Source: a virus. Taken from it: DNA of 37,863 nt. The notes under the pieces are model-generated. The model was not told the origin of the DNA, did not search any database, and saw only the letters and a list, made by a program, of their open reading frames with translations. Position numbers and translations under genes: made by a program. The stretch spans positions 1-37,863 of the IMG/VR virus record IMGVR_UViG_3300048839_001886; one strand, given 5' to 3'. Shown here one piece after another: positions 708-36,247 of the stretch (position 1 is the stretch's first letter; each line of letters opens with the position of its first letter).

Positions 708-1261
708 GGCGTCCACCCTTCCTGACGACGACGGTTCCACTCCAGGATCGCAGCGTTGGACATAGGCTTCGGGGCGGTCATCTCCGCCCGGAACTCGTCG
801 TTCGGCATTGGCGGGGGAAGCGCCAAGGCGCGGGTTTCCCGCATCCCCTCCAACACCGCCTTGACAGCCGCCGGCTTGACGGTGGGAGCCTTGATCCCTT
901 CCAGGGTCTTGCCGCCGAACCAGAAGACGACGATGGTCCCCATGATGATCCACATGGGCTCTGGGACCAGGCCGAGCGCCTGAACGCTGGCGGAGAATGC
1001 CACCGGATCGACCACGCACCAGACGAACAGCCCGATCATGCCGAAGGTCATCAACGGGCGCGGCAGTCGGTTCAGGCCGTCAACCAGGCTGTTCCACGGG
1101 CCGCGCCGTTCCGGCCCCTGGAATTCGGCCGCGAACTGCTGGCGCATGGCGGCTTGGTCGTCGGCCGCCTGCTGGTCGCGGGCCGCCCTGTCGCCGAAGA
1201 TCGTCTTGACCAGGCCGCCGACGCTTTCGATCAACCCGCCCCCCAAGAGCTTCATCAGCAT
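704..1261 (-). CDS. Phage holin, 3TM-type (185 aa)
   Basis: Likely forms the inner-membrane lesion that releases or activates the endolysin. An N-terminal amphipathic segment (MKLLGGGLIESVGGLVKTIF) is followed by a charged region, then two clear membrane helices (about residues 72-92 and 100-116, including GMIGLFVWCVVDPVAF and MWIIMGTIVVFWFGG) and a long charged C-terminus. This arrangement fits the Holin_3TM family. The ATG at 1261 overlaps the endolysin stop as ATGA and is preceded by GGAGGTG. An internal ATG at 1255 would give a two-residue-shorter form, reminiscent of dual-start holins, but that is speculative. Confidence 0.75.
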   Translation of the reverse strand: MLMKLLGGGLIESVGGLVKTIFGDRAARDQQAADDQAAMRQQFAAEFQGPERRGPWNSLVDGLNRLPRPLMTFGMIGLFVWCVVDPVAFSASVQALGLVPEPMWIIMGTIVVFWFGGKTLEGIKAPTVKPAAVKAVLEGMRETRALALPPPMPNDEFRAEMTAPKPMSNAAILEWNRRRQEGWTP

Positions 1262-1800
1262 CACGCCACCTCCTGCCGGAATTCTTCCGCCCGCGCCATC
1301 CAGCCGCGCTCGAATACCGCCTGCGACGGATCCCTGGCGATGATCGCCGCGTAGAATGCCTTGCGTTCCTCGACCAGGGCGTTGACCAGATAGGGACCCA
1401 TCTCGGCCGCCGCGCGATCGACCGCCTTGCGGGTCTGCGGACCAAGCGCCCCGTCCACATCCACCGGGCCGAATCCGGCCTCGTTGATGACCTGCTGCGC
1501 CATCATGATGGCGCGGCGGGGGCCGGAATTGACGGCCACGTCGAACAGGACCGGACGGACGGCCTCGGGGAGGCTGTCGATCCGGGGGCCATGGTAGTAT
1601 CGCTGCGCGTAGATTTCCCGCGCCGTGTCCTCGTCCAGGGCGCGCACGTCGTCCGCCGTCGCCGGGCGCCCGAGCCATGCCGCAAGCGTCGCCTGGGTGA
1701 TGCCGTACTTGGTCGGCCCGCCCCGGTCGGACGGGTGGTTGACGTACCCGCCCTCGCGGCGCAGCACGTCGGAAATCAAGTCGTCAACAGACTTTTTCAT
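1261..1800 (-). CDS. Endolysin, glycoside hydrolase 108 N-acetylmuramidase (179 aa)
   Basis: Cleaves the peptidoglycan glycan backbone at the end of infection. The N-terminal GH108 domain has the catalytic EGGY motif (Glu16) followed by DRGGPTKYGIT and an RYYHGPRIDSLP segment. The C-terminal part (about 100-170) contains GALGPQTRKAVD and matches the PG_binding_3 domain usually paired with GH108. No signal peptide is visible, so export through the holin downstream is expected. The start overlaps the preceding small membrane gene as ATGA. Length is normal for the family. Confidence 0.93.
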   Translation of the reverse strand: MKKSVDDLISDVLRREGGYVNHPSDRGGPTKYGITQATLAAWLGRPATADDVRALDEDTAREIYAQRYYHGPRIDSLPEAVRPVLFDVAVNSGPRRAIMMAQQVINEAGFGPVDVDGALGPQTRKAVDRAAAEMGPYLVNALVEERKAFYAAIIARDPSQAVFERGWMARAEEFRQEVA

Positions 1801-2015
1801 CGCAGCGCCTTCCCCAGGTGTTCGACGATCCAGGCCAGGCCAGCCAGGATTGCCACCGTGGCGCCGCCGAATTTCAGGGCGAGGAACCAGGCGCCGCGCC
1901 CCATGTTGGCTATCGCGAGCAACTGGTCCACCTTGCCGTCGATGTCACGGGTCCAGCTTTCCAGCGCCTTGACCCGTCCCATGAGTTCGCCGATGTCCTT
2001 GTCCGCGTCACCCAT
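1797..2015 (-). CDS. Small membrane-anchored protein upstream of endolysin (72 aa)
   Basis: A predicted helical N-terminus (IGELMGRVKALESWTRDI, then DGKVDQLLAI) is followed by one membrane helix near the C-terminus (FGGATVAILAGLAWIV). This layout resembles hemolysin XhlA-type phage proteins, which sit beside endolysin and holin and associate with the membrane. ATG at 2015 overlaps the previous stop. A GTG three bases upstream is an alternative. A role in lysis is inferred from context. Confidence 0.65.
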   Translation of the reverse strand: MGDADKDIGELMGRVKALESWTRDIDGKVDQLLAIANMGRGAWFLALKFGGATVAILAGLAWIVEHLGKALR

Positions 2016-2398
2016 CACGCATCACCCGGCCAGAGGGTGTCGGCGGCGATGTCCAGGCCCGGCGCGTCCGCAAGCTGGGCCTCGATGGCGTCGGATGCGG
2101 CGCGCACGGCCCCGATCCAGGTCTTCATGCTCTCGTATACGGCTCCGCCTTCCATGATCAGGTTTCTTTGCTTCCAGTCCGGATAACGGGCCAGGATGCG
2201 GCGGGATGCCTCCTTCTTTACGTCGGCCACGTTTGCCGGAGACGGGGTCCACTTGACGACAGCGGAACCGTCCCAGGTGTCCTGAGTTGTCGCGTCGTCG
2301 GGCACCTCCACCCAGGTCAGACCGGGCGCGACGAGGAATTCGTCGCCCTCCCCGACGATCTGGCAGATGCGGGTGCCATGGATGAGGGCTTTCTTCAT
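2015..2398 (-). CDS. Tail-fibre-associated hypothetical protein (127 aa)
   Basis: Lies directly after the tail-fibre gene (3 bases between them). The N-terminus (MKKALIHGTRICQIV) is beta-like. The C-terminal half (ASRRILARYPDWKQRNLI, later WIGAVRAASDAIEAQL) resembles the helical C-terminal region common in fibre-assembly or accessory proteins of siphoviruses. I infer a tail-fibre chaperone or accessory role. No catalytic motif is visible. Confidence 0.6.
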   Translation of the reverse strand: MKKALIHGTRICQIVGEGDEFLVAPGLTWVEVPDDATTQDTWDGSAVVKWTPSPANVADVKKEASRRILARYPDWKQRNLIMEGGAVYESMKTWIGAVRAASDAIEAQLADAPGLDIAADTLWPGDA

Positions 2399-2401
2399 GG
2401 C

Positions 2402-3538
2402 TCAGGCCTCCTTGAATTCGATCACGTAAACGAGCCCGGCGGTGCCGTTTCCCTGCGTACCGGACCCGCGGCTGCCAGCCCAGCCCCAGAAAGACCCTCC
2501 TCCGCCGGGATCGGTATCGGTGGCGTGGTAATACCCGTATTCCCCCGTCAGGTTGACGTCGCCTCCGCTCCCCGTCCCGCCGGCGACGCGCCAAGTCGTG
2601 ATGTTCCCGGTTCCGCCGGTCGCCGAACAGAGGGAGCCGAGCGAGCTTGTGCCGCCGTTCCCTCCACTTGGCGTCCCACCAGATCCAATCGTGACGGTTT
2701 CGGTCGATCCTATCGATGCCGCCGCAATCAACTTGATTGCCGTGCCACCGCCCCCGCCGCAGCCCTGGCTGATGTCATTGGCTCCCGCCCCGCCGCCGCC
2801 CGTCACGAAGACCAAGGCGTAGAGCAGCCCGGCCGGCTTGGTGTAGGTCCCGGACGCGGTAAATACTTGCGTCGACATGGCGATGCCGCCGCCCGCCAGG
2901 GCCGCGATGGCCTGGGCGACTCGCTCGGCAGACCAGGATCGCGGCGTGGTTGCGATCCCAGCTTCCGCCTCCGCCTGAGACGGCAAGGGCAGCAAAGCGG
3001 CAATGGCTTGCGCGACGCGCAGCGAGGTGGTTGCCTTGGCGTTGTCGGTGCCGGCCTCCGCCTCCGCCTGGGAGGCAAAATCAGCCGTGGCGACATCGCC
3101 AAGGCCAAGCATGGACAGCGCCCGCAGATCGTCCAGGTCGGCATTCGTGATTTCCGTCATGCCGGCGGTCCAGTTGATGCGCGCTACGGCGATCTTGCCG
3201 GACGGAACGGCCGGGTCGGAAGGGCTTGGGTCTTCCGTGCCGGCCGCTACCCCGACGACTCCGGTTTTCCGGTCGATATAGACGATATCCTTGCGGGGAT
3301 CCGACGACGGAGCCGTCAGGGTGCCGGTATCCTGTGCCGCGACTTCCGCCGGCAGTGCGCCGGCCGCCGGGATGGCCCCGGCATCAAGGTACACCTTCAT
3401 GTCCGGCGTGGATGCCGAGTGCGGCGCGAAGGGGCCGGCGATTCGGCTGTGAACATGCGCGGCGCCGTCGATGGCCGCCTTATAGGAGGAGCCGGACTGG
3501 GAGGAATAATCCGGCTGCGTGAAAGTCGAAACGGTCAT
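2402..3538 (-). CDS. Tail fibre / receptor-binding protein (378 aa)
   Basis: Likely contacts the host surface. The first 150 residues resemble a fibre shaft or attachment region. Two degenerate fibre repeats follow (ASQAEAEAGTDNAKATTSLR and PSQAEAEAGIATTPRSWSAE, each ending RVAQAIAAL), a pattern common in phage tail fibres. The last 150 residues are strongly glycine-rich (TGGGGAGAND, GCGGGGGTAI, GGTPSGGNGGTSS, DPGGGGSFWG), resembling the polyglycine-type adhesin tips of T-even gp38-like proteins. The start lies one base after the tail-tip gene's stop. Confidence 0.85.
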   Translation of the reverse strand: MTVSTFTQPDYSSQSGSSYKAAIDGAAHVHSRIAGPFAPHSASTPDMKVYLDAGAIPAAGALPAEVAAQDTGTLTAPSSDPRKDIVYIDRKTGVVGVAAGTEDPSPSDPAVPSGKIAVARINWTAGMTEITNADLDDLRALSMLGLGDVATADFASQAEAEAGTDNAKATTSLRVAQAIAALLPLPSQAEAEAGIATTPRSWSAERVAQAIAALAGGGIAMSTQVFTASGTYTKPAGLLYALVFVTGGGGAGANDISQGCGGGGGTAIKLIAAASIGSTETVTIGSGGTPSGGNGGTSSLGSLCSATGGTGNITTWRVAGGTGSGGDVNLTGEYGYYHATDTDPGGGGSFWGWAGSRGSGTQGNGTAGLVYVIEFKEA

Positions 3539-3539
3539 G

Positions 3540-6500
3540 TCATGGCCCCGTGGCTACGATGGTTGCCGTGCCGCCGACATCGGCGTCGGCGGTGTCGTGC
3601 AGATGGATGGTGACGCCGGATGCGGACAGCCCGGAATAGACGCCGATCCGGGCCGCCCCGCTTTCCTGACGTGCGGTAATTTCGATCCCCGGAACAGTCA
3701 GGAAGGGGGGGGAGAAAACGAGTGCGGTGCCTCCGGCGGAGATGGCTTGGGCGTCGAACCGCTGCTGTCTGGCTTCCGCGTCCACGGTGGCGGAAAATCC
3801 GGTGATCGCCGCCACGCCGGTTGCGGTATCGAGGCGAACACGGACCTTGAAATACCGTCCGTACACGGTCCCGGCGGACCAGTCCTGGAAGTCTCCGTAG
3901 GAGCCGCCGTCAGGCTTCGCGGCCACGGCAAGGATTGGATCTGACACGCCGCCTTCGCCAGGTCCGAGATTCGCCGTCGGGATGCCCCATAGCCGCACGG
4001 ATGCATCCTGCCCGATGTCGATTCCCGGGGCCTCGAAATAAGGATCGGCAACCGGATCGTGAACCATTCGGTCCCAAAGCTGGGAATCGGACATGTCGGC
4101 GGCCAGGGTCCCGCTGTCCGGAATCAGGGTCCCCGACACGTCGTGTCGGATGAAGCCGGACAGGGTTCCGACCCAGCGCGGATGCGCCATGCGTTCGGCG
4201 ATGACCGCATTGCCGTTGCTTACCGTGATCGTCGTCGTCGCGGCGGATGCGGAATAATTCCCCGAGGTGTCGACCGCCTTGACGCCGACAACCCACGATC
4301 CAGGCGGAAGGCCGGCGTTGGAAATCAGGGTGCCCTTGGTTTCCCTGGTCAGCACGAGCGCATCGTCCCAGACGAAGGGGGCTGCCATGTAGCGCAGTTC
4401 GTATCCGTTGCGGTCCAGATCGGTTATGGCCGGCCAGCGGAAGGTGACGACGTTGCCGTTCTGCTGCGCCGACAGGGCCGAAACGTTCGATGGCGCTTCG
4501 GCCTTGCCGGAGACGATATGGCCCGCAACGCTCGCTTGCCACGGATCGTCGGAATCCCTGTCCGACTTTACCCCGGCGGAATTGATGGCCCGCACCTCCA
4601 TGTCGTAGGACGTGCCGTCTTCCACCGGTTCGGCGAAGAGTTCCGTCACGGCGCCGGGCGCCATGGCGCCGTAGACCCAAACGGAAGAGGCGGAGGGCTT
4701 CCATCGTGCCTGGACGTGGCCGCCCTGGGTGACGAAGATATCGGCCGGCGAGGCGAAGGAGGCCTTGATGCGCGACACCACGGTGCCGTCGCCCTTGATG
4801 ACCAGGGCCGCCGTTCCGCTTTCCAGGGATAGGCCGGTCGGCGGCTGGACGGTCAGCACGGATGGCAGATTGGTGTTGGGCGCCAGATCCTCGATGGTTT
4901 CGTCTCCGGCGTTCCATTCCCATACCGCCGCCGCTTCTTCCTTCAGTCCTATCTGCAAGGAAAGATCGGCCCTTTCCTTCAGGGACATGACGCGGAATTC
5001 CTTGGCTGCCCAGCCGAAATGGTCGAGCGAGACGGATTCCACGTCCCAGACCGCCGTGCCGAACTTGAGCGGCTTCAAGGTCAGGTTGGCGACCATGCCC
5101 TGTCTTGCCCGTTCGACGGCGATCTTCAGGAGACGCTGCGCGGCGACCGGGTCATGCGTGAACTGCATCTCGAAATCGCGGTAGATGCGCTGCCCATTGT
5201 CTTCGGCCACATAGGCCGCGCTCGACCAGGGCACGATATCCTGCATGGTCCAGTAGCGATCCGGGTCGATGAAGGTCCCCCGCGCGCTGTTGAAGATGTC
5301 GCCGCCGTCCAGCATGGGGATGACCTCGATATCGCCGGTCCCGAGGGCGCTTTCGTCGATGGTGCCGGTGGATGCGGTGGCCGCGCCGGGAAAAATCTGG
5401 AACTTGCCTTCCTCGGAATAGACCACGACGCCGGAGGCCGCCGTCATCATGGCTTCCAGGGTATCCAGCGGGCCGGTATCCAGGGTTGCCACGCCGTTGC
5501 AGGTGTAGCGCGGCTGCGACTTGCGAGTGACGGTATGGGTTCCAGACCCGGAATCGGAGATATCGACGAAGACCCCGCGCCTGGCGTTTTCGAGCGTCGT
5601 CGCCAGCTTGATCGTGGTGGTATCGAGACGCCTGACATAGTAGGTCGTTCCCGCCGAAAGTCCGACCGGCAAGGCTCCCGTGCTGGACAGCATGACGCCG
5701 TCGCCGGTCCGCCAGCGGCAGGCCTCGCCAAGCGTCAGGCTGTCGCTGGAAGCGGTCGCCGTGAAGGTCTTTCCGTCGTCGGCGAGAGACACTTGCTCGT
5801 CGCAGATGTTGGCCGCCGCCGCCAACTGGTCCATGTCGATTTCGGCATCCGGCGTGTCCCATACGTCGCGCAATGCCATGTAGGACGCCACGCAGAGGGC
5901 CCAATTGTCCGACCATTCCATCCTGCTTGCCGTCCCTGTCGTGGCGGCCGCCGACAAAGCCAGGGCAATGCCGTCCTGATCGGTCAGGGTGAAATGCGTC
6001 GAATCGGGCACCGTGGCGACCTGGTGCATCTTTTCAACCGCAGTCCGTTCGTCTGAGCCGGTCGGAACGCGGGTGCCGTCGCAATCGCCGATCCAGACGT
6101 AATCGCCGACCGACAGGCCGTGCGCGCCGTCGGTGGAGAAGACCGCTGGATCGGCGGCCGTGGCTCCGACGATGACGATTGGGGTATCGCGGGGGTCGAA
6201 GACGAAGAGCCCGCGAACCTGGGCCTCAAGGTTGGAGAAGCCGTTCGGCCATGTATCGCTGTCCCATTCCAGGCGAGCCGCCGTGTAGGTCACGCCGCCG
6301 CCCTTGTCGGCGGAAGTCCAGCCCGACACCTCGGAGACCATGGCCGAATCGGCGGCCTGATCGAAGGAACCGAGGTGTCCGGTCAGTCGGATTTTTCCCT
6401 TGAACCGTCCGTCGGCGGGAATGCCGGATCCGTCCAGGGAGCCGACGGGTTCGTCATTGGCGAACCAGCCGACGATTTCCGCGCAAGGATGGGCCGCATG

Positions 6501-15116: not shown

Positions 15117-15857
15117 TCATTCCCTTCCGATGGCTTCCCAGCAGGAGCCGTGGGAGATCTCGTCCAGCGTCCATTGGTTTTCCGCCAATTTCCAGAGAAC
15201 CAGTTCCCGCAACGGCCGTTCCGGCGCCTCGATCCTGGACAGGTCGCCGGTTCCCAAGGCAAGCCCAGCGCACGGCGCGGTGCAGAAGACGTGGACGCCA
15301 TCCATTGCGGCCTCGACGGCCGCATTGCTGGAATGGGTAACCAGTGCCCAGCAGCCCTTCAGGTCGGCGGACAGAGGGCGCGAATTAGCCTGGCCCCGCG
15401 CCCGCGTCCGGATCGGCCTGTCGGTATGCCGTCGCAGTTCCGCCGCGACGTTTTCCGCCCACGCGGCCCCGGAGAATCCCAGGAGGCCGGCGAACAGGTC
15501 GTCCGGCGGGCACAGCAGGATATGCCCCCCTTCCGTCCGCCACGGCTTGATGGACAGTCCGAATGACGCGAAGCGGTCAGGCTGGGCGTCGCCCCATCCG
15601 TCGTGTTGCAGGTCGCCCCGCGTCACCCGGAAATATTCCCCGCGCCCGAAATATCCATGGTCGCCGTACCACCAGTCGCGACCCTCCGCCCTGGCCTGGG
15701 AAAGCAGGTCCCAAAGGGCAGGCGAGCCGAACAGCGCGACCGGGCCGGGCCGGAGCCCCCCATCATCCGCCACGGTCCCGCCGCAACCTTCGGCGAAGGC
15801 GCGGCAGAAGCGGGGCGAGGTCTTTTCCGTCGGCACGGCGTAGCTGATCGGCGTCAT
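15117..15857 (-). CDS. Capsule-polysaccharide-synthesis-like glycosyltransferase (246 aa)
   Basis: The C-terminal half has SADLKGCWALVTHSSNAAVE and DGVHVFCTAPCAGLALG, resembling the conserved donor-binding region of KpsC/KpsS-type Kdo transferases (VTxxSxxxxEAxxxGxPV). The N-terminal half contains DWWYGDHGYFGRGEYFRVTR, a motif I associate with phage-encoded relatives. A short C-terminal ENQWTLDEISHG ends the protein. Exact sugar and acceptor are unknown. It overlaps the next gene by four bases, indicating coupled translation within the cassette. Confidence 0.6.
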   Translation of the reverse strand: MTPISYAVPTEKTSPRFCRAFAEGCGGTVADDGGLRPGPVALFGSPALWDLLSQARAEGRDWWYGDHGYFGRGEYFRVTRGDLQHDGWGDAQPDRFASFGLSIKPWRTEGGHILLCPPDDLFAGLLGFSGAAWAENVAAELRRHTDRPIRTRARGQANSRPLSADLKGCWALVTHSSNAAVEAAMDGVHVFCTAPCAGLALGTGDLSRIEAPERPLRELVLWKLAENQWTLDEISHGSCWEAIGRE

Positions 15858-16471
15858 GACAGTACGTCCTTCAGATCAGCGATCGGGAAGCAGTCCAGGG
15901 CCGACCCTGGCGTGCAGTTGATGACTTCCACGCCGGACTTTTCCAGGTCGGGGAGCGTGGTGCGGAAATTCTCGATCCAGTCGCGGTAGGGGGAATCCTT
16001 CCGGAGCGCGCCGGGATGTTCCCCGAACCAGTGGCGCCGCCCGTCCGCCCCCGGCTTCATATCGAACCCGAGGAGCACGATGCGTTCAGCGCCCATCAGA
16101 ACCGCCAGGTTGAGGGCCTGGTATCCGGAATTGCCGCCCTGGTGGATCGTTCCCGGCGTCAGCGACAGTCCGGGATTCGGCAGGCTTTCCCACCATGAAA
16201 GCCCGTATCGTTCCGCCGTCTTCAGGTCGGCCGGACGATTGCCGTAGGGACCCAACTGCGTCCAGCGCATGCCGGAAAATTCGGGAACGCCGTCGTGATG
16301 TTCCCACCATGCGGCATCGGCGGCATAGAGGGCATCGGCGAAAGGCGCAAGACGCCAGGCGTCGTTGACGGCGATCACCCGGCACCTTCCCGCAAGCAGG
16401 CCAACGCGGTCCGGGGACAGGCTGGGACCGGACGCGACGATCCCGACCGTTTCCCCGGACCAGTCCGGCAT
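15854..16471 (-). CDS. DUF115-like / sugar-transfer-associated Rossmann protein (205 aa)
   Basis: An N-terminal glycine-rich nucleotide-binding-like motif (ETVGIVASGPSLSPDRVGLL) is followed by VIAVNDAWRLAPFADALYAA and a central GNSGYQALNLAVLMGAERIV then LLGFDMK. This pattern resembles DUF115/MAF-like and phage sialyltransferase-like proteins that handle nucleotide-linked sugars. It begins the four-gene carbohydrate cassette and lies directly after the capsid-adjacent gene with no gap. Enzymatic activity is inferred. Confidence 0.6.
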   Translation of the reverse strand: MPDWSGETVGIVASGPSLSPDRVGLLAGRCRVIAVNDAWRLAPFADALYAADAAWWEHHDGVPEFSGMRWTQLGPYGNRPADLKTAERYGLSWWESLPNPGLSLTPGTIHQGGNSGYQALNLAVLMGAERIVLLGFDMKPGADGRRHWFGEHPGALRKDSPYRDWIENFRTTLPDLEKSGVEVINCTPGSALDCFPIADLKDVLS

Positions 16472-27922: not shown

Positions 27923-28194
27923 GCCGCCACCTCGTCGCCTGTCGGGAAAAGGAGCAACTGGGCCGTCCTCTCCCCATCGTCTCGCCTGCCCGACCTGAAC
28001 GCGGCCTCGGCCCGTTCCGCGCATTCCGGGCAGGCGTCCAGACCTCCGAGACGCTGGACGACGGTTTCGTCGTAGGTCTTCCAGGCGCCTTCCGGCCCAT
28101 CCCAGCAGCGGCGCTCGATGTTCCTTGACACCGTGCGCTCGGGGCGGAAAATCGCGCCACCGCCGCCGCAGGTCCCGCATGTCGTCGTCACCAT
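27919..28194 (-). CDS. Zinc-ribbon protein (91 aa)
   Basis: CGTCGGGG near the N-terminus (Cys6, Cys9) and ACPECAER (Cys55, Cys58) form a likely zinc site like those in DnaJ-type and topoisomerase-type ribbons. Overlaps the helicase 3' end by seven bases and the HTH gene as ATGA. Possibly an accessory DNA-binding factor. No enzymatic motif. Confidence 0.68.
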   Translation of the reverse strand: MVTTTCGTCGGGGAIFRPERTVSRNIERRCWDGPEGAWKTYDETVVQRLGGLDACPECAERAEAAFRSGRRDDGERTAQLLLFPTGDEVAA

Positions 28195-30686
28195 CTGGCG
28201 CCTCCGAATGCCTGCTGTCCGCGCGGCTGGAACCGGCTCCTGTACTGGTTCCGTGTGCGCAACACGTTCTCCGCCCAGGCCACGGGGTGTTCCATCCGGC
28301 GGAGCCGGCCGTAGGCAACCAGGTCCGAACGGGTCTTGAGCGCCGCCACCGCGTCCTTGAACTTCATCCGCAGCAGCACGTCGGCCTGGATCCCGGCGAT
28401 GGGCGGGTGCGATTCGACGGCCGCCGAGGCGAACCCGGACACCACCTGGGTATTGCCGCAGGAACAGCGCATGTGGATGTGGCCCTCGGGACGCTCGTGC
28501 ATGCGGGAACATTTCCGGCAGCGCCACGTGGCCTGCACCGCCTTTTCCAGACCATTCAGGCCGCCCTTGAGGTCCCAGGGGCGGGGCGCGTCGTACATGC
28601 CGTGCCGGCCGCCGTTGCCCACCAGGTCGAGGATGACGGCATGGCTCTTGTCGGCGTGGGTGCGCAACGCGCGGCCACAGTTTCCGACGATCGCGACCTT
28701 TCCCCGCCGTCTGACAACGAGGGTTCCAAGCGCATTCGTGAGACACCAGACGGCCTCGCCAGCCCCAGGCCCCTCGGAAATCATCATCCCCGACCGCCCC
28801 GGTTCCGAATTTGAGCCTCCAACCACGGAACTCGTCTGCTTCCTGACGTGGAGAAGGTACGCCGGCTGACGATCTCCCCGGACTGGATTGTAAACGGCGA
28901 GATTGCACCGGTAGCCGCGCCGGACGGCCAACGACTGGAGCCGATCCGCAAGGGTGCGGTTTGCTCCGCAGGAAATGTCCATGGTCCGCTTTTCCCATGC
29001 GATGGCGGACGGATGGCACCCGTGGCCGGAGTTCATGGTCTCCAGAAGAATACCGAACTGACGTTCGTCCATGTCGTCGAGCGCCAGCGAGAAGTCACGG
29101 TCAATGTATTCTTCAAGATCTGCCCATCCGCGCAGGTGCTTATCTCTCCCGCGTGGCTGGCCTCGGGAGATGCTGTACCTGACCAAGCGACGATATTTTT
29201 TCATCTCCCCTTTCCGTTCCGGGGAGTAGACACCATATTTGAACCCGCACCCTTCGAGGCATTTCCGGATTTCGTCGTTTTCCTGCTTGCCTTCGGACTG
29301 GCAAATGGTGATGGCGTTCGTCTTCTTGTTGAGCCCTCCATTTGTCATGAACCAGCCGATGAAGCGGATTTCGGCATCCGACAACGGCAGCCCGTGCGCC
29401 TGTTGAGTTCCGGAAACCGGCAGACGGAACTGCCCTTTCATGCCGGCAAGGTCGGACGCCTCGCGGACTTGCCAGCGCATCGATGTCATGCTCTTGCATC
29501 GGTACACCATGCGATGCCCGCCGGTCACCCGGATGTCCAGGTGAGGCGAAATCACCTCGAACATCGACTCTCCATCCGCCAGGGGACGGACAACTTTGTC
29601 CTGGATGACACGCCATTCGATCCGGCCCGTTTCCATGTCGAAAGCGGCGACTTGGCCGTCGATGAACACCTCGTCGTGTCTTTTCCAGCCGGCCGGCGTC
29701 AGCACCTCGGTTTCGATGTCAAGGCACTGCTGGATGTAAAGGCTTGTCGATGCCGTGGGCCGCTCCATGATCGCCACCGAAATGGCCGGGATGTCCAAGC
29801 CCTCGCCGATCAGGGCGCAGCTGGTCAGGACCTGCACCGAGCCGTCGGCCAGGCCCTGGATCGCGGCCGCGCGTTCCCGGGGCGACATGGACCCGTCCAC
29901 CGAGCGGGCCAGCCATCCGGCGGCGCGGTAGGCTTCGGCCGAAGCCTCGGCGAGTTCCACGGTCGAGCAGAAGACCACGGCCGGCTGCCCCGGCGCGTGC
30001 TTGGCGTACCAGCGCCGGCCGATCACCGATATCCCCGACTTGGCCACCGCCTCGGCCACCTCGTTGACGGCGTAGTCGCCGGCCCGCACCTTGACGCCGG
30101 ACAGGTCGAGCTCCGTCTTCGGCGCGTAGACGATGGCCGGGGCCAGGTAGCCGGCGGCGGTCAGGTCGCGGATGCCCGGACAGCGAACCACATGATGGAA
30201 GTGCCCGTCCTCGCCCAGCCCCTTGCCGTCCAGGCGGAAGGGGGTGGCGGTCAGGCCGATGTTCTGGGCCCTCGCCATGGCATGGGCGATGCGCGTCCAG
30301 CCGGCGGCGGCGATGTGGTGCGCCTCGTCGAAGACGGCGATCTCGACCTTGGCCAGCCAGGGCGCCAGGGCCTCCATGCGGGCCAGCACCGTGTCGACGG
30401 ATGCGATGTGCAGCCGGTGTCCGGTCAGGTCGTGGCCGGGGCGCAGCATGCCATGCGGGATGCCCAGGGAATGGGCGCGTTGGGATGCCTGATCCAGCAG
30501 CTCGGCGCGATGGGCGAACCAGACCACCGGTTTCCCGGCGGCCAGCAGGGTGCGGAGGCCGTCCATGCCCATGGTGGTCTTGCCCGATCCGACGGGGGCC
30601 TCCAGCAGCACGCCGGGCGATCCCCGTTGCAGCCAAGCGAGGGTTTCGTTGACGGCCTTGGTCTGGTAGGGGCGGAGGACGGTCAC
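28188..30686 (-). CDS. RadD-like SF2 helicase with intein (832 aa precursor)
   Basis: DNA helicase for replication or recombination. Helicase motifs: LEAPVGSGKTT (Walker A, about 28-38), FDEAHH (119-124), LTATPF (145-150), EGLDIP (295-300), and motif VI, which is interrupted by an intein: host residues ...YIQQ (to 320) join CGRALR (from 670). Removing residues 321-669 leaves a 483-aa helicase with a zinc-binding C-terminus (RCRKCSRMH, MRCSCGN). GTG 30686 overlaps the resolvase stop as GTGA with AAGGAG upstream. It is similar in layout to RadD/YejH, but exact family is uncertain. Confidence 0.9.
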   Translation of the reverse strand: MTVLRPYQTKAVNETLAWLQRGSPGVLLEAPVGSGKTTMGMDGLRTLLAAGKPVVWFAHRAELLDQASQRAHSLGIPHGMLRPGHDLTGHRLHIASVDTVLARMEALAPWLAKVEIAVFDEAHHIAAAGWTRIAHAMARAQNIGLTATPFRLDGKGLGEDGHFHHVVRCPGIRDLTAAGYLAPAIVYAPKTELDLSGVKVRAGDYAVNEVAEAVAKSGISVIGRRWYAKHAPGQPAVVFCSTVELAEASAEAYRAAGWLARSVDGSMSPRERAAAIQGLADGSVQVLTSCALIGEGLDIPAISVAIMERPTASTSLYIQQCLDIETEVLTPAGWKRHDEVFIDGQVAAFDMETGRIEWRVIQDKVVRPLADGESMFEVISPHLDIRVTGGHRMVYRCKSMTSMRWQVREASDLAGMKGQFRLPVSGTQQAHGLPLSDAEIRFIGWFMTNGGLNKKTNAITICQSEGKQENDEIRKCLEGCGFKYGVYSPERKGEMKKYRRLVRYSISRGQPRGRDKHLRGWADLEEYIDRDFSLALDDMDERQFGILLETMNSGHGCHPSAIAWEKRTMDISCGANRTLADRLQSLAVRRGYRCNLAVYNPVRGDRQPAYLLHVRKQTSSVVGGSNSEPGRSGMMISEGPGAGEAVWCLTNALGTLVVRRRGKVAIVGNCGRALRTHADKSHAVILDLVGNGGRHGMYDAPRPWDLKGGLNGLEKAVQATWRCRKCSRMHERPEGHIHMRCSCGNTQVVSGFASAAVESHPPIAGIQADVLLRMKFKDAVAALKTRSDLVAYGRLRRMEHPVAWAENVLRTRNQYRSRFQPRGQQAFGGARW
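28680..29726 (-). mobile_element. Intein with degenerate LAGLIDADG endonuclease (349 aa)
   Basis: Starts with Cys (CLDIETEVLTPAGWKRHDEV, block A), has block B with RVTGGHRMVYR (His71), and ends with VWCLTNALGTLVVRRRGKVA then IVGN before Cys+1 (blocks F and G). It sits in helicase motif VI, an active-site position typical of inteins. The central domain has FIGWFMTNGG (122-131) and FGILLETMNSGHGC (224-237), positioned like the two LAGLIDADG/DOD motifs. Both usual acidic residues seem replaced (Asn129, His235), so the endonuclease is probably inactive. The penultimate residue is Gly, not the usual His. Confidence 0.88.
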
Positions 30687-31207
30687 TTCCCCATCTCCTT
30701 GCGGTAGAGGTGACAGCCCAGGTCCCAGATTGCCAGGGCATCGGCCTCGTTGTCGTCGGCGACCCACCAGCCGCGTTGCCGGCAGGCGGCGATCATGTCG
30801 TCCTTCTTGGCGTTTCCCTTGCCCGTCCAGTGCTTCTTGACGCTGGCCGGCTGGGCGACGGCCCGCCAGCGAATCCCGCGCTGGTCGGCCAGCATTTCGG
30901 CGATGCCCGCCATGGACATCAGCTTGCGGACGGTTTCATAACTGGTCATCTTGGGCATCAGGGGGGCCTCGATGATCAGCCCGGCCGGCCGCTTGTCGTA
31001 CAGCAGGCGGGTCAGGCGAAAATGGAATTCGGCCAGGAAATGCCCGACGCCTCCAGCCTCCGTCATCACGCGGAGGACGCCGGATTCCGGACGGGCTGGC
31101 GGGGAGGACGCCGCTTCAATCGCAGTCGCGCCCCGGAGCGGGACGCGCCCGTAGCACCAGCCGGTTTTGGTCGCGATATCGAGCGCGAGAAGTCCCCCCG
31201 CCGTCAT
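30683..31207 (-). CDS. RuvC-like Holliday junction resolvase (174 aa)
   Basis: Ribonuclease-H-fold nuclease resolving recombination or packaging junctions. The first acidic residue is in LLALDIATKTGW (Asp10), the second in GLIIEAPLMPKM (Glu80), and the C-terminal acidic cluster is VADDNEADALAIWDL (Glu154, Asp156). These match RuvC-type phage resolvases. A basic segment, ASVKKHWTGKGNAKKDDM, is also typical. It precedes the helicase, suggesting a recombination-replication module. Confidence 0.92.
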   Translation of the reverse strand: MTAGGLLALDIATKTGWCYGRVPLRGATAIEAASSPPARPESGVLRVMTEAGGVGHFLAEFHFRLTRLLYDKRPAGLIIEAPLMPKMTSYETVRKLMSMAGIAEMLADQRGIRWRAVAQPASVKKHWTGKGNAKKDDMIAACRQRGWWVADDNEADALAIWDLGCHLYRKEMGK

Positions 31208-32212: not shown

Positions 32213-32288
32213 TGGTCGGAGCGGCCGGACTCGAACCGGCGACAACCGGCTTCCAGGGCCGGAACTCTACCAATTGAGCTACACTCCG
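32213..32288 (-). tRNA. tRNA-Pro (TGG), CCA encoded
   Basis: Full cloverleaf on the minus strand. Acceptor stem CGGAGTG/CGCTCCG with the C1-G72 pair typical of tRNA-Pro, GCTC D stem, anticodon stem CCGGC/GCCGG with loop CCTGGAA (anticodon TGG), T stem GCCGG/CCGGC with TTCGAGT. A73 and CCA are encoded. Odd points: position 33 is C rather than U and position 37 is A rather than the G usual in tRNA-Pro. Confidence 0.85.
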
Positions 32289-32290
32289 AT

Positions 32291-32366
32291 TGGAGCCGCA
32301 GGCGGGGATCGAACCCGCGACATCCTGATTACGAATCAGGCGCTCTACCAACTGAGCTACTGCGAC
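32291..32366 (-). tRNA. tRNA-Thr (CGT), CCA encoded
   Basis: Acceptor GTCGCAG/CTGCGGC (one G-T pair), D arm GCTCAGTTGGTAGAGC, anticodon stem CCTGA/TCAGG with loop TTCGTAA (anticodon CGT), T arm GCGGG-TTCGATC-CCCGC, discriminator T and CCA encoded. Two bases separate it from tRNA-Pro and 11 bases from the upstream CII-like gene, so all are probably one transcript. Confidence 0.94.
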
Positions 32367-34984: not shown

Positions 34985-35028
34985 ATGAACAAATTGTTGT
35001 TGACCGCCCATGAACATTATGTTCATAT
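34985..35028 (+). promoter_or_regulatory. PR promoter-operator module
   Basis: TTGACC (35000-35005), a 17-base spacer and TCATAT (35023-35028). The palindrome ATGAACATTATGTTCAT (35010-35026) is perfect and covers the spacer and -10. A second degenerate site starts at 34985 (ATGAACAAATTGTTGTT), 25 bases upstream. The same layout is found at 33329-33372. Drives the rightward operon starting at 35129 with about a 95-base leader. Confidence 0.82.
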
Positions 35029-35128
35029 CCTCCTGTCGCCACCCACGGCGACGACCCTCTCCCAGACCCCGGCGGCGGTCCCTCTAAGCCGCCGGGGAAG
35101 GGAAGGGGGAAACAGGAGGAGGAAGAAC

Positions 35129-36247
35129 GTGACCGCCAAGACGAAGCGCGCCAGGAAGACCAAGCCCCCCGTCGCTCCGGCGCCGGAGCCCGAAATCGTC
35201 GCCTACAAGGGCTTCGATAATGACTTCCGCTGCCGGGGCTATCAGTACGAAGTCGGAAAAACCTACGAGCACGCCGGCGAGGTGGGAGCGTGCAGAAGCG
35301 GCTTTCATGCCTGCGAGCATCCACTCGATGTCTTCCGTTACTACGCGCCGGCCGGCAGCCGCTTTGCCCTCGTGAAGCAGTCGGGCTCCCTGTCACGCCA
35401 CGACGAGGACACCAAGATTGCTTCCGCCCGGATCACCATCGATGCCGAGATCGACTTGACGGGCCTCATCCAGGCGGCGGTGAAATGGGTATTCGCCCGT
35501 GCCAAGTGGGTTGATGGGCCCGTGGCGACGGGGGACTACGAAGCGGCCACCGCCAGCGGCGATCATGGCGCGGCCACCGCCAGCGGCGATCATGGCGCGG
35601 CCACCGCCAGCGGCGATCATGGCGCGGCCACCGCCAGCGGCGATCATGGCGCGGCCACCGCCAGCGGCGATCAGGGCGCGGCCACCGCCAGCGGCCATCA
35701 TGGCGCGGCCACCGCCAGCGGCTATTATGGCGCGGCCACCTCAAGCGGTTATTATGGCGCGGCCACCTCAAGCGGCTATTATGGCGCGGCCACCTCAAGC
35801 TGCGATCATGGCGCGGCCACCGCCAGCGGCTATCATGGCGCGGCCACCGCCAGCGGCGATCGGGGCGCGGCCACCTCAAGCGGCTATTATGGCGCGGCCA
35901 CCGCCAGCGGCCATCATGGCGCGGCCACCGCCAGCGGCGATCAGGGCGCGGCCACCGCCAGCGGCCATCATGGCGCGGCCACCGCCAGCGGCGATCAGGG
36001 CGCGGCCACCGCCAGCGGCGATCATGGCGCGGCCACCGCCAGCGGCAATCATGGCGCGGCCACCGCCAGCGGCGATCAGGGCCGCGTGCGGGGCAAGGAT
36101 GGCAACGCCCTGTTCCTCGTGCACCGCGACGCGAGCGGCAACATCACCCACGCCTGGGCCGGGATTGTCGGCCGCAACGGCATCAAGCCGGACACTTGGT
36201 ACAGACTGGGCCCCGACGGCAACCCAGTGGAATGGGGCGAGGGCTGA
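35129..36247 (+). CDS. DUF7666 protein with twenty 9-residue repeats (372 aa)
   Basis: The N-terminal domain (about 25-135) has AYKGFDNDFRCRGYQYEVGK, GACRSGFHACEHPLDVFRYY and IASARITIDAEIDLTGLIQA, matching the phage DUF7666 domain. It is followed by twenty tandem repeats GAATASGDH-like that probably form a beta-solenoid, then a C-terminal RVRGKDGNALFLVHRDASGN and TWYRLGPDGNPVEWGEG. GTG 35129 follows GGAGGAGGAAG. First gene of the PR operon. Function unknown; the variable positions in the repeats suggest binding. Confidence 0.85.
   Translation: MTAKTKRARKTKPPVAPAPEPEIVAYKGFDNDFRCRGYQYEVGKTYEHAGEVGACRSGFHACEHPLDVFRYYAPAGSRFALVKQSGSLSRHDEDTKIASARITIDAEIDLTGLIQAAVKWVFARAKWVDGPVATGDYEAATASGDHGAATASGDHGAATASGDHGAATASGDHGAATASGDQGAATASGHHGAATASGYYGAATSSGYYGAATSSGYYGAATSSCDHGAATASGYHGAATASGDRGAATSSGYYGAATASGHHGAATASGDQGAATASGHHGAATASGDQGAATASGDHGAATASGNHGAATASGDQGRVRGKDGNALFLVHRDASGNITHAWAGIVGRNGIKPDTWYRLGPDGNPVEWGEG
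35543..36082 (+). repeat. Twenty tandem 27-bp coding repeats
   Basis: Each unit encodes AAT(A/S)SG-xx-G. Positions seven and eight vary (DH, DQ, HH, YY, YH, DR, NH), one unit has Cys in place of Gly, and others are nearly invariant at the DNA level. No stop occurs in several other frames across the array, so large shadow frames appear there. Confidence 0.93.

Follow-up and report, generated by a model that had tools for sequence, protein, structure and literature searches.

Can an intein that has lost both catalytic acids of its homing endonuclease still be a working intein, and if so, why is the dead endonuclease domain kept, not trimmed away? These questions are raised by a helicase gene in an IMG/VR virus record of 37,863 bases (the window), which also carries terminase, portal, head protease, major head protein and tail genes. 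Inteins usually insert into conserved catalytic motifs, and here 349 codons stand between the QQ and the CGRALR of helicase motif VI. An initial annotation, made from the sequence of the window, had drawn attention to the absence of the acids and to a Gly-Asn end, which was taken as a sign of altered or regulated splicing.

An intein in which neither LAGLIDADG active site survives is already known (PhoVMA, PMC8966425), and so is the penultimate Gly (PMC5050341). What is added here is a series of inteins at the same site of one phage helicase motif, in which the residues at the two acid positions go from D/D over D/N to N/H, together with a dead domain that is still conserved. Such a series makes the late homing cycle testable, and in particular the reason why a dead endonuclease domain is retained.

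A class 1 intein in motif VI of a phage helicase

The insert is a class 1 LAGLIDADG-bearing intein, which belongs to a large phage family and resides in motif VI of a phage SF2 helicase. Its coordinates, frame and length of 349 residues were exact as first annotated (Table 1). The helicase reading frame matches Pfam ResIII and Helicase_C and the PHROG DNA helicase family (9.5e-65), and is RadD-like by NCBIfam, at a score under the cut-off of that model. The frame is open from its upstream limit at 30767; counted from the GTG codon at 30686, the precursor has 832 residues and the joined exteins have 483, the length given earlier for the mature helicase. The closest relative, L017 (IMG/VR 3300048839_001720, the contig that also appears as L111), is 76% identical to the window in the intein and 92% in the N-extein.

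Table 1. Features of the helicase gene and its intein in the window
Feature	Position	Strand	Remarks
SF2 helicase gene with intein	28188..30686	minus	GTG start 30686, stop 28188; Pfam ResIII and Helicase_C; PHROG; start aligned with L017
N-extein, 320 aa, C-terminal end ...SLYIQQ	29727..30686	minus	92% identical in L017
Intein, 349 aa, C (29726) to N (28680)	28680..29726	minus	between ...SLYIQQ and CGRALR...
Cys1, splicing nucleophile, block A	29724..29726	minus	Cys in 73/73 family inteins
Block B, T68-G-G-H71	29514..29525	minus	
LAGLIDADG endonuclease domain, intein residues 113-285, approximate limits	28872..29390	minus	PI-PkoII profile match; model and structural match
Asn129 (AAT) at first catalytic acid position	29340..29342	minus	
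His235 (CAC) at second catalytic acid position	29022..29024	minus	
Cys328, block F position 4	28743..28745	minus	invariant in family
Gly348-Asn349, block G, C-terminal end	28680..28685	minus	Gly universal in family
C-extein, 163 aa and stop, begins CGRALR (Cys+1)	28188..28679	minus	

With a slash marking the junction between intein and extein, the insert has block A CLDIETEVLTPAGW, block B VTGGHRM (T68 to H71), block F VWCLT (C328) and the end VGN/C. The class 1 assignment follows from Cys1, from T68 and H71 in block B, from Asn349 with Cys+1 behind it, and from host homologues that lack the insert; the penultimate His, which is usual but not obligatory in this class, is absent, and Gly348 stands in its place. 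When the insert is used as a tblastn query, similar inteins are found in 237 phage records, with full-length alignments in unrelated host genes for a methylase, a portal, a terminase, a metallophosphoesterase, NAMPT and a nucleotidyltransferase. Motif VI is continuous, mostly as QQVGR, in about 45 helicases of viral contigs that are related to this one. From these observations it follows that the insert is an intein, as first proposed, and neither a chance resemblance nor a normal subdomain of the helicase.

An AlphaFold2 model of the intein, built on five same-site sequences (mean pLDDT 84, pTM 0.83), matches solved LAGLIDADG inteins (TliVMA, PI-PkoII, PhoVMA, PI-PfuI and PI-SceI) across about 300 residues, at Z scores of 20-22 (best 22.3). 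The fold with two LAGLIDADG motifs is present, both by the profile match to PI-PkoII and by the structural matches to TliVMA, PI-PfuI and PI-SceI; the endonuclease domain has no Pfam family match at E values up to 1. In an active LAGLIDADG endonuclease an acid ends each of the two helices, but in the window these positions are taken by Asn129 and His235.

A class 3 intein is rejected, since the WCT triplet (B:12, F:4, G:5) is absent (M73, C328, V347) and Cys1 is present; only the F:4 Cys is held in common with class 3 inteins, and it is found in other inteins too (PMC4031507). By sequence, the solved splicing domain that fits best (7e-12) is that of AceL NrdHF (PDB 6ZGQ; Z 18.6 and 2.0 A in structure), a naturally split class 3 intein. 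It resembles the window intein in having Met at B:12 and Cys at F:4 and in lacking an assisting His at F:13 and at G:6, but it is split, has no endonuclease, and carries Glu1 and Thr at G:5, where the window has Cys1 and Val. An intron is rejected as well, the only matches in an Rfam scan being two tRNAs. The same holds for an endonuclease gene in a second frame, like the one hidden in the ShiLan element (PMC11855218): the out-of-frame reading frames that were tested have no Pfam match, and the synonymous differences in the intein are not reduced.

The Gly-Asn end as a family-wide state

In a comparison of the window intein with 72 others from viral contigs, 69 of the 73 end in Gly-Asn and four (L151, L156, L182, L186) apparently in Gly-Gln, the matches of these four stopping ahead of the Gln. 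The penultimate Gly is present in all 73, where Cys1 and the F:4 Cys are likewise invariant and a T/S..His is kept, and Gly-Asn also ends distant relatives from cultured phages and phage MAGs.

Kelley et al. 2016 found the penultimate His to be often missing in class 1 mycobacteriophage inteins (PMC5050341). To exemplify, the Bethlehem RDF intein has Gly316 and splices completely, and exchange of this Gly for His makes splicing strongly slower (PMC5050341). The corresponding intein in the Euphoria phosphoesterase (L006) has 317 residues and ends in Gly316-Asn317, and from this length and from the host product the tested Bethlehem intein appears to belong to the family of the window intein. The intein of Bethlehem gp51 and Euphoria gp49, in an RDF/metallophosphoesterase, shares with that of the window full-length similarity, Cys1, the F:4 Cys, the penultimate Gly, the terminal Asn and LAGLIDADG motifs, but it has another host gene, is about 25% identical and has Asp at both acid positions; the endonuclease of the mycobacteriophage RDF intein has been reported to be toxic when expressed (PMC5050341). 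In the AceL NrdHF intein both assisting histidines are missing, and splicing takes place within minutes (PMC7891396).

Since the Gly is family-wide and since the Bethlehem and AceL NrdHF inteins splice as described, the Gly-Asn end gives no ground for expecting slow or regulated splicing, and the earlier proposal to this effect finds no support. A special defect is ruled out by the universality of the end in the family. The description "non-standard" is right in so far as the end differs from that of a textbook intein, but it is misleading for these phage inteins, where a penultimate Gly should not be taken as impaired splicing.

Splicing is proposed to proceed by the chemistry of the family. 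Assisted by T68 and H71, Cys1 would form the thioester, the N-extein would be accepted by Cys+1, which is a motif VI residue of the helicase itself, and Asn349 would cyclise without an adjoining His, so that the intein is freed and QQCGRALR restored. As motif VI is split in the precursor, the helicase is presumably inactive before splicing and would become active only thereafter.

Loss of both catalytic acids

Where relatives have Asp or Glu in the first LAGLIDADG-type motif and Asp in the second, the window has Asn129 (FIGWFMTNGG) and His235 (LLETMNSGHG), and the alignments show no intact acidic pair elsewhere in the domain. The residue pairs among the 73 inteins are D/D (48), E/D (7), D/N (13), D/A (2), S/D (1) and N/H (2); 70 of them have an acid at the first position and 56 at the second. 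The N/H pair is limited to the window and L017; no other member has lost both acids. Its AAT and CAC codons are identical in these two genomes, so the pair is neither a sequencing error nor of recent date, and by parsimony the loss of both acids would be older than the split between the window and L017.

More same-site inteins came from scans with a pattern and with a profile. Together the inteins at this motif VI point (Q[QM]/CGR, once QQ/CARSLR), 14 in number, form one clade with an SH-aLRT value of 99, in which five have D/D (L112, L113, L116=L034, L119=L033 and L123), seven have D/N (L114=L032, L117, L118 and L124-L127) and two, the window and L017, have N/H. The comparison of loci that was suggested at the outset has in this way supplied both uninterrupted homologues and same-site inteins that retain the acids, against which the absence of the acids from the window is established. 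Two of the D/D inteins, L033 and L034 (both from IMG/VR), share with the window the insertion point QQ/CGR, the Gly-Asn end and 42-43% identity, but have both LAGLIDADG acids intact. The L034 helicase (minus strand, 828-3818 of the reverse complement) is interrupted twice, in motif VI by the intein with both acids and in motif I by a mini-intein (GSGK/CYGRGTP...GHN/TLM).

Over the whole family the second acid has been lost repeatedly, with at least eight changes of this character on the tree. Besides the seven same-site inteins, D/N is found in L139, L146, L148, L158, L159 and L166; these enzymes, with the first acid kept and the second Asp changed to Asn, might be nickases or half-dead. In L143 the intein is shortened to 309 aa, its first LAGLIDADG motif being broken (FIGWFLAS) and its second retained.

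Judged from these sequences, the endonuclease of the window is very probably dead and descended from that of an active homing intein. That mobility has been lost with it is a reasonable inference, which goes beyond proof by sequence alone. PhoVMA (PDB 7QST) likewise has the full intein fold (Z 21.1) and lacks the active-site residues in both LAGLIDADG motifs (PMC8966425); its host is an archaeal ATPase and its second LAGLIDADG helix is truncated, whereas in the window the acids are changed and the domain has its full length.

It may be argued that the endonuclease still cuts or nicks through Asn and His or through other residues, and that the intein still homes. Asn or His could in principle hold the metal, and acids that are largely new to the window/L017 lineage are found at E145, E149, D220 and E221, with which a residual activity is conceivable. 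The purifying selection described below would suit such an enzyme, and so would an arrival by transfer, with which the lower third-position GC of the intein than of the extein in the window, L017, L032 and L033 is consistent. Against these points stand the high frequencies of acids at the two positions in the family and the placement of D220 and E221, which, judged by secondary structure only, would be where the second LAGLIDADG helix begins, away from the usual site at its end. PhoVMA, moreover, is without these residues and is reported to be inactive (PMC8966425). Continued cutting and homing we regard as very improbable, and the endonuclease is in the following treated as dead.

Purifying selection on the dead domain

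When the window and L017 are compared by the Nei-Gojobori method, the endonuclease has a dN/dS of 0.16 (bootstrap 0.09-0.26), the N-terminal splicing part one of 0.225, and the two exteins have values of 0.15 and 0.17. The synonymous divergence in the endonuclease domain is 0.65, and its 93 nucleotide differences amount to 31 amino-acid changes. When these differences are placed neutrally 2000 times, the mean number of amino-acid changes is 60 and the minimum is 49. On a fixed tree the tip lengths for endonuclease columns over those for splicing columns have ratios of 0.52 (window) and 0.48 (L017); elsewhere the ratio is mostly near 1, and it exceeds 1 at the D/N tips L118, L126 and L127. From the 31 changes against at least 49 under neutrality, the low dN/dS and the short tips it follows that the domain is not relaxed in the window/L017 lineage, and this one pair of genomes points to purifying selection since the acids were lost. 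A stronger constraint on the endonuclease than on the splicing part is more weakly indicated, the excess conservation being small (Fisher p 0.018, rising to 0.07 when the splicing core is drawn more narrowly) and dN/dS (0.16 vs 0.205) showing no clear difference.

Now consider a decaying relic, in which loss of the endonuclease is recent, the domain is disappearing, and its conservation reflects a short divergence time or is left over from codon selection. In the homing cycle, acids are usually lost once an intein has become fixed (PMC8966425), and the D/N relatives L118, L126 and L127 have dN/dS of 0.25-0.35 in the domain and 0.16-0.17 in the splicing part, as expected from such decay. In the lineage of the window, however, the loss appears to predate the split from L017, since which the domain has accumulated the synonymous divergence given above, the neutral null is rejected, and the domain has remained at full length without deletion. 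Decay is here a very unlikely account, and of the two descriptions in the initial annotation "apparently dead" stands, with both acids gone, while "relic" is weakened.

Why the domain is retained

In some inteins the splicing fold depends on the endonuclease scaffold (PMC8966425), and a dependence of this kind is the best explanation for the conservation of the dead domain. Normal splicing is most likely, with the domain retained for folding or splicing. The course of events that we consider likely is then the following. The ancestor of the same-site clade would have been an active homing intein, and in the lineage of the window and L017 both metal-binding acids would have been lost by changes from D to N and from D to H. 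As the loss of both acids implies, the intein would no longer drive its own homing and would now be inherited vertically, with the dead domain kept because the intein needs the endonuclease scaffold to fold and to splice.

The main rival to the scaffold explanation is DNA binding, by which the excised intein or the precursor would regulate at the old homing site or at another phage site, in the manner of WhiA, a transcription factor with a LAGLIDADG-type domain. The purifying selection would be accounted for, the second half of the domain contains 31 consecutive residues that are identical (KRTMDISC...RCNL), and WhiA structures are among the weaker Foldseek matches. The helix-turn-helix domain of WhiA is, on the other hand, missing in the window intein, a search for a regulatory role or target site was without success, and structural dependence accounts for the same conservation in a simpler way, which makes regulation by DNA binding unlikely. 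The wider proposal that the dead domain has been taken over for a selected new job, be it splicing dependence or that of a DNA-binding regulator tied to helicase maturation, is rather unlikely too, if somewhat less so. The scaffold explanation is the one preferred.

Insertion sites and genome context

The +1 residue is Cys in all intein bearers of the same-site clade, and the equivalent position in uninterrupted motif VI sites of the fetched loci is V, I, A or M in 63 of 64 (a number that includes overlapping loci of one contig), a pattern of residues that fits a chemical need for Cys. The remaining site, in L166, has Cys at the third position (QMCGRGLR); the intein of this helicase is in motif V, and QMCGRGLR could be a scar left by a former intein in motif VI.

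A viral-contig scan with the single intein sequence, a plasmid search and two bacterial-contig scans revealed no copy in a host or a prophage, the contig patterns being narrow and the result weak, and no standalone HNH or GIY-YIG gene was found among the larger reading frames of the phage. The helicase inteins that tblastn overlap suggested in Upyo and S-2L were dismissed, as the annotated proteins, of 547 and 421 aa, are too short for such a length.

The inteins of the family (the 72 aligned with that of the window, numbered within L111-L190) occupy several separate points of SF2 helicase cores, in motif V (EGFD/CP, VL/TEGWD) and in motif VI (Y/CQMxGR, LQ/CLGR, Q[QM]/CGR). A family intein in Salinibacter phage M31CC-1 (L001) is placed in motif V. 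Elsewhere in the window there is a pair of adjacent tRNA genes (32216-32366, minus strand), a match close to the head genes to a PHROG named alpha-2,3-sialyltransferase (15857-16471, minus strand), and a reading frame in which a DUF7666 domain is joined to collagen-like repeats and tail-fibre-like segments (34985-36244, plus strand).
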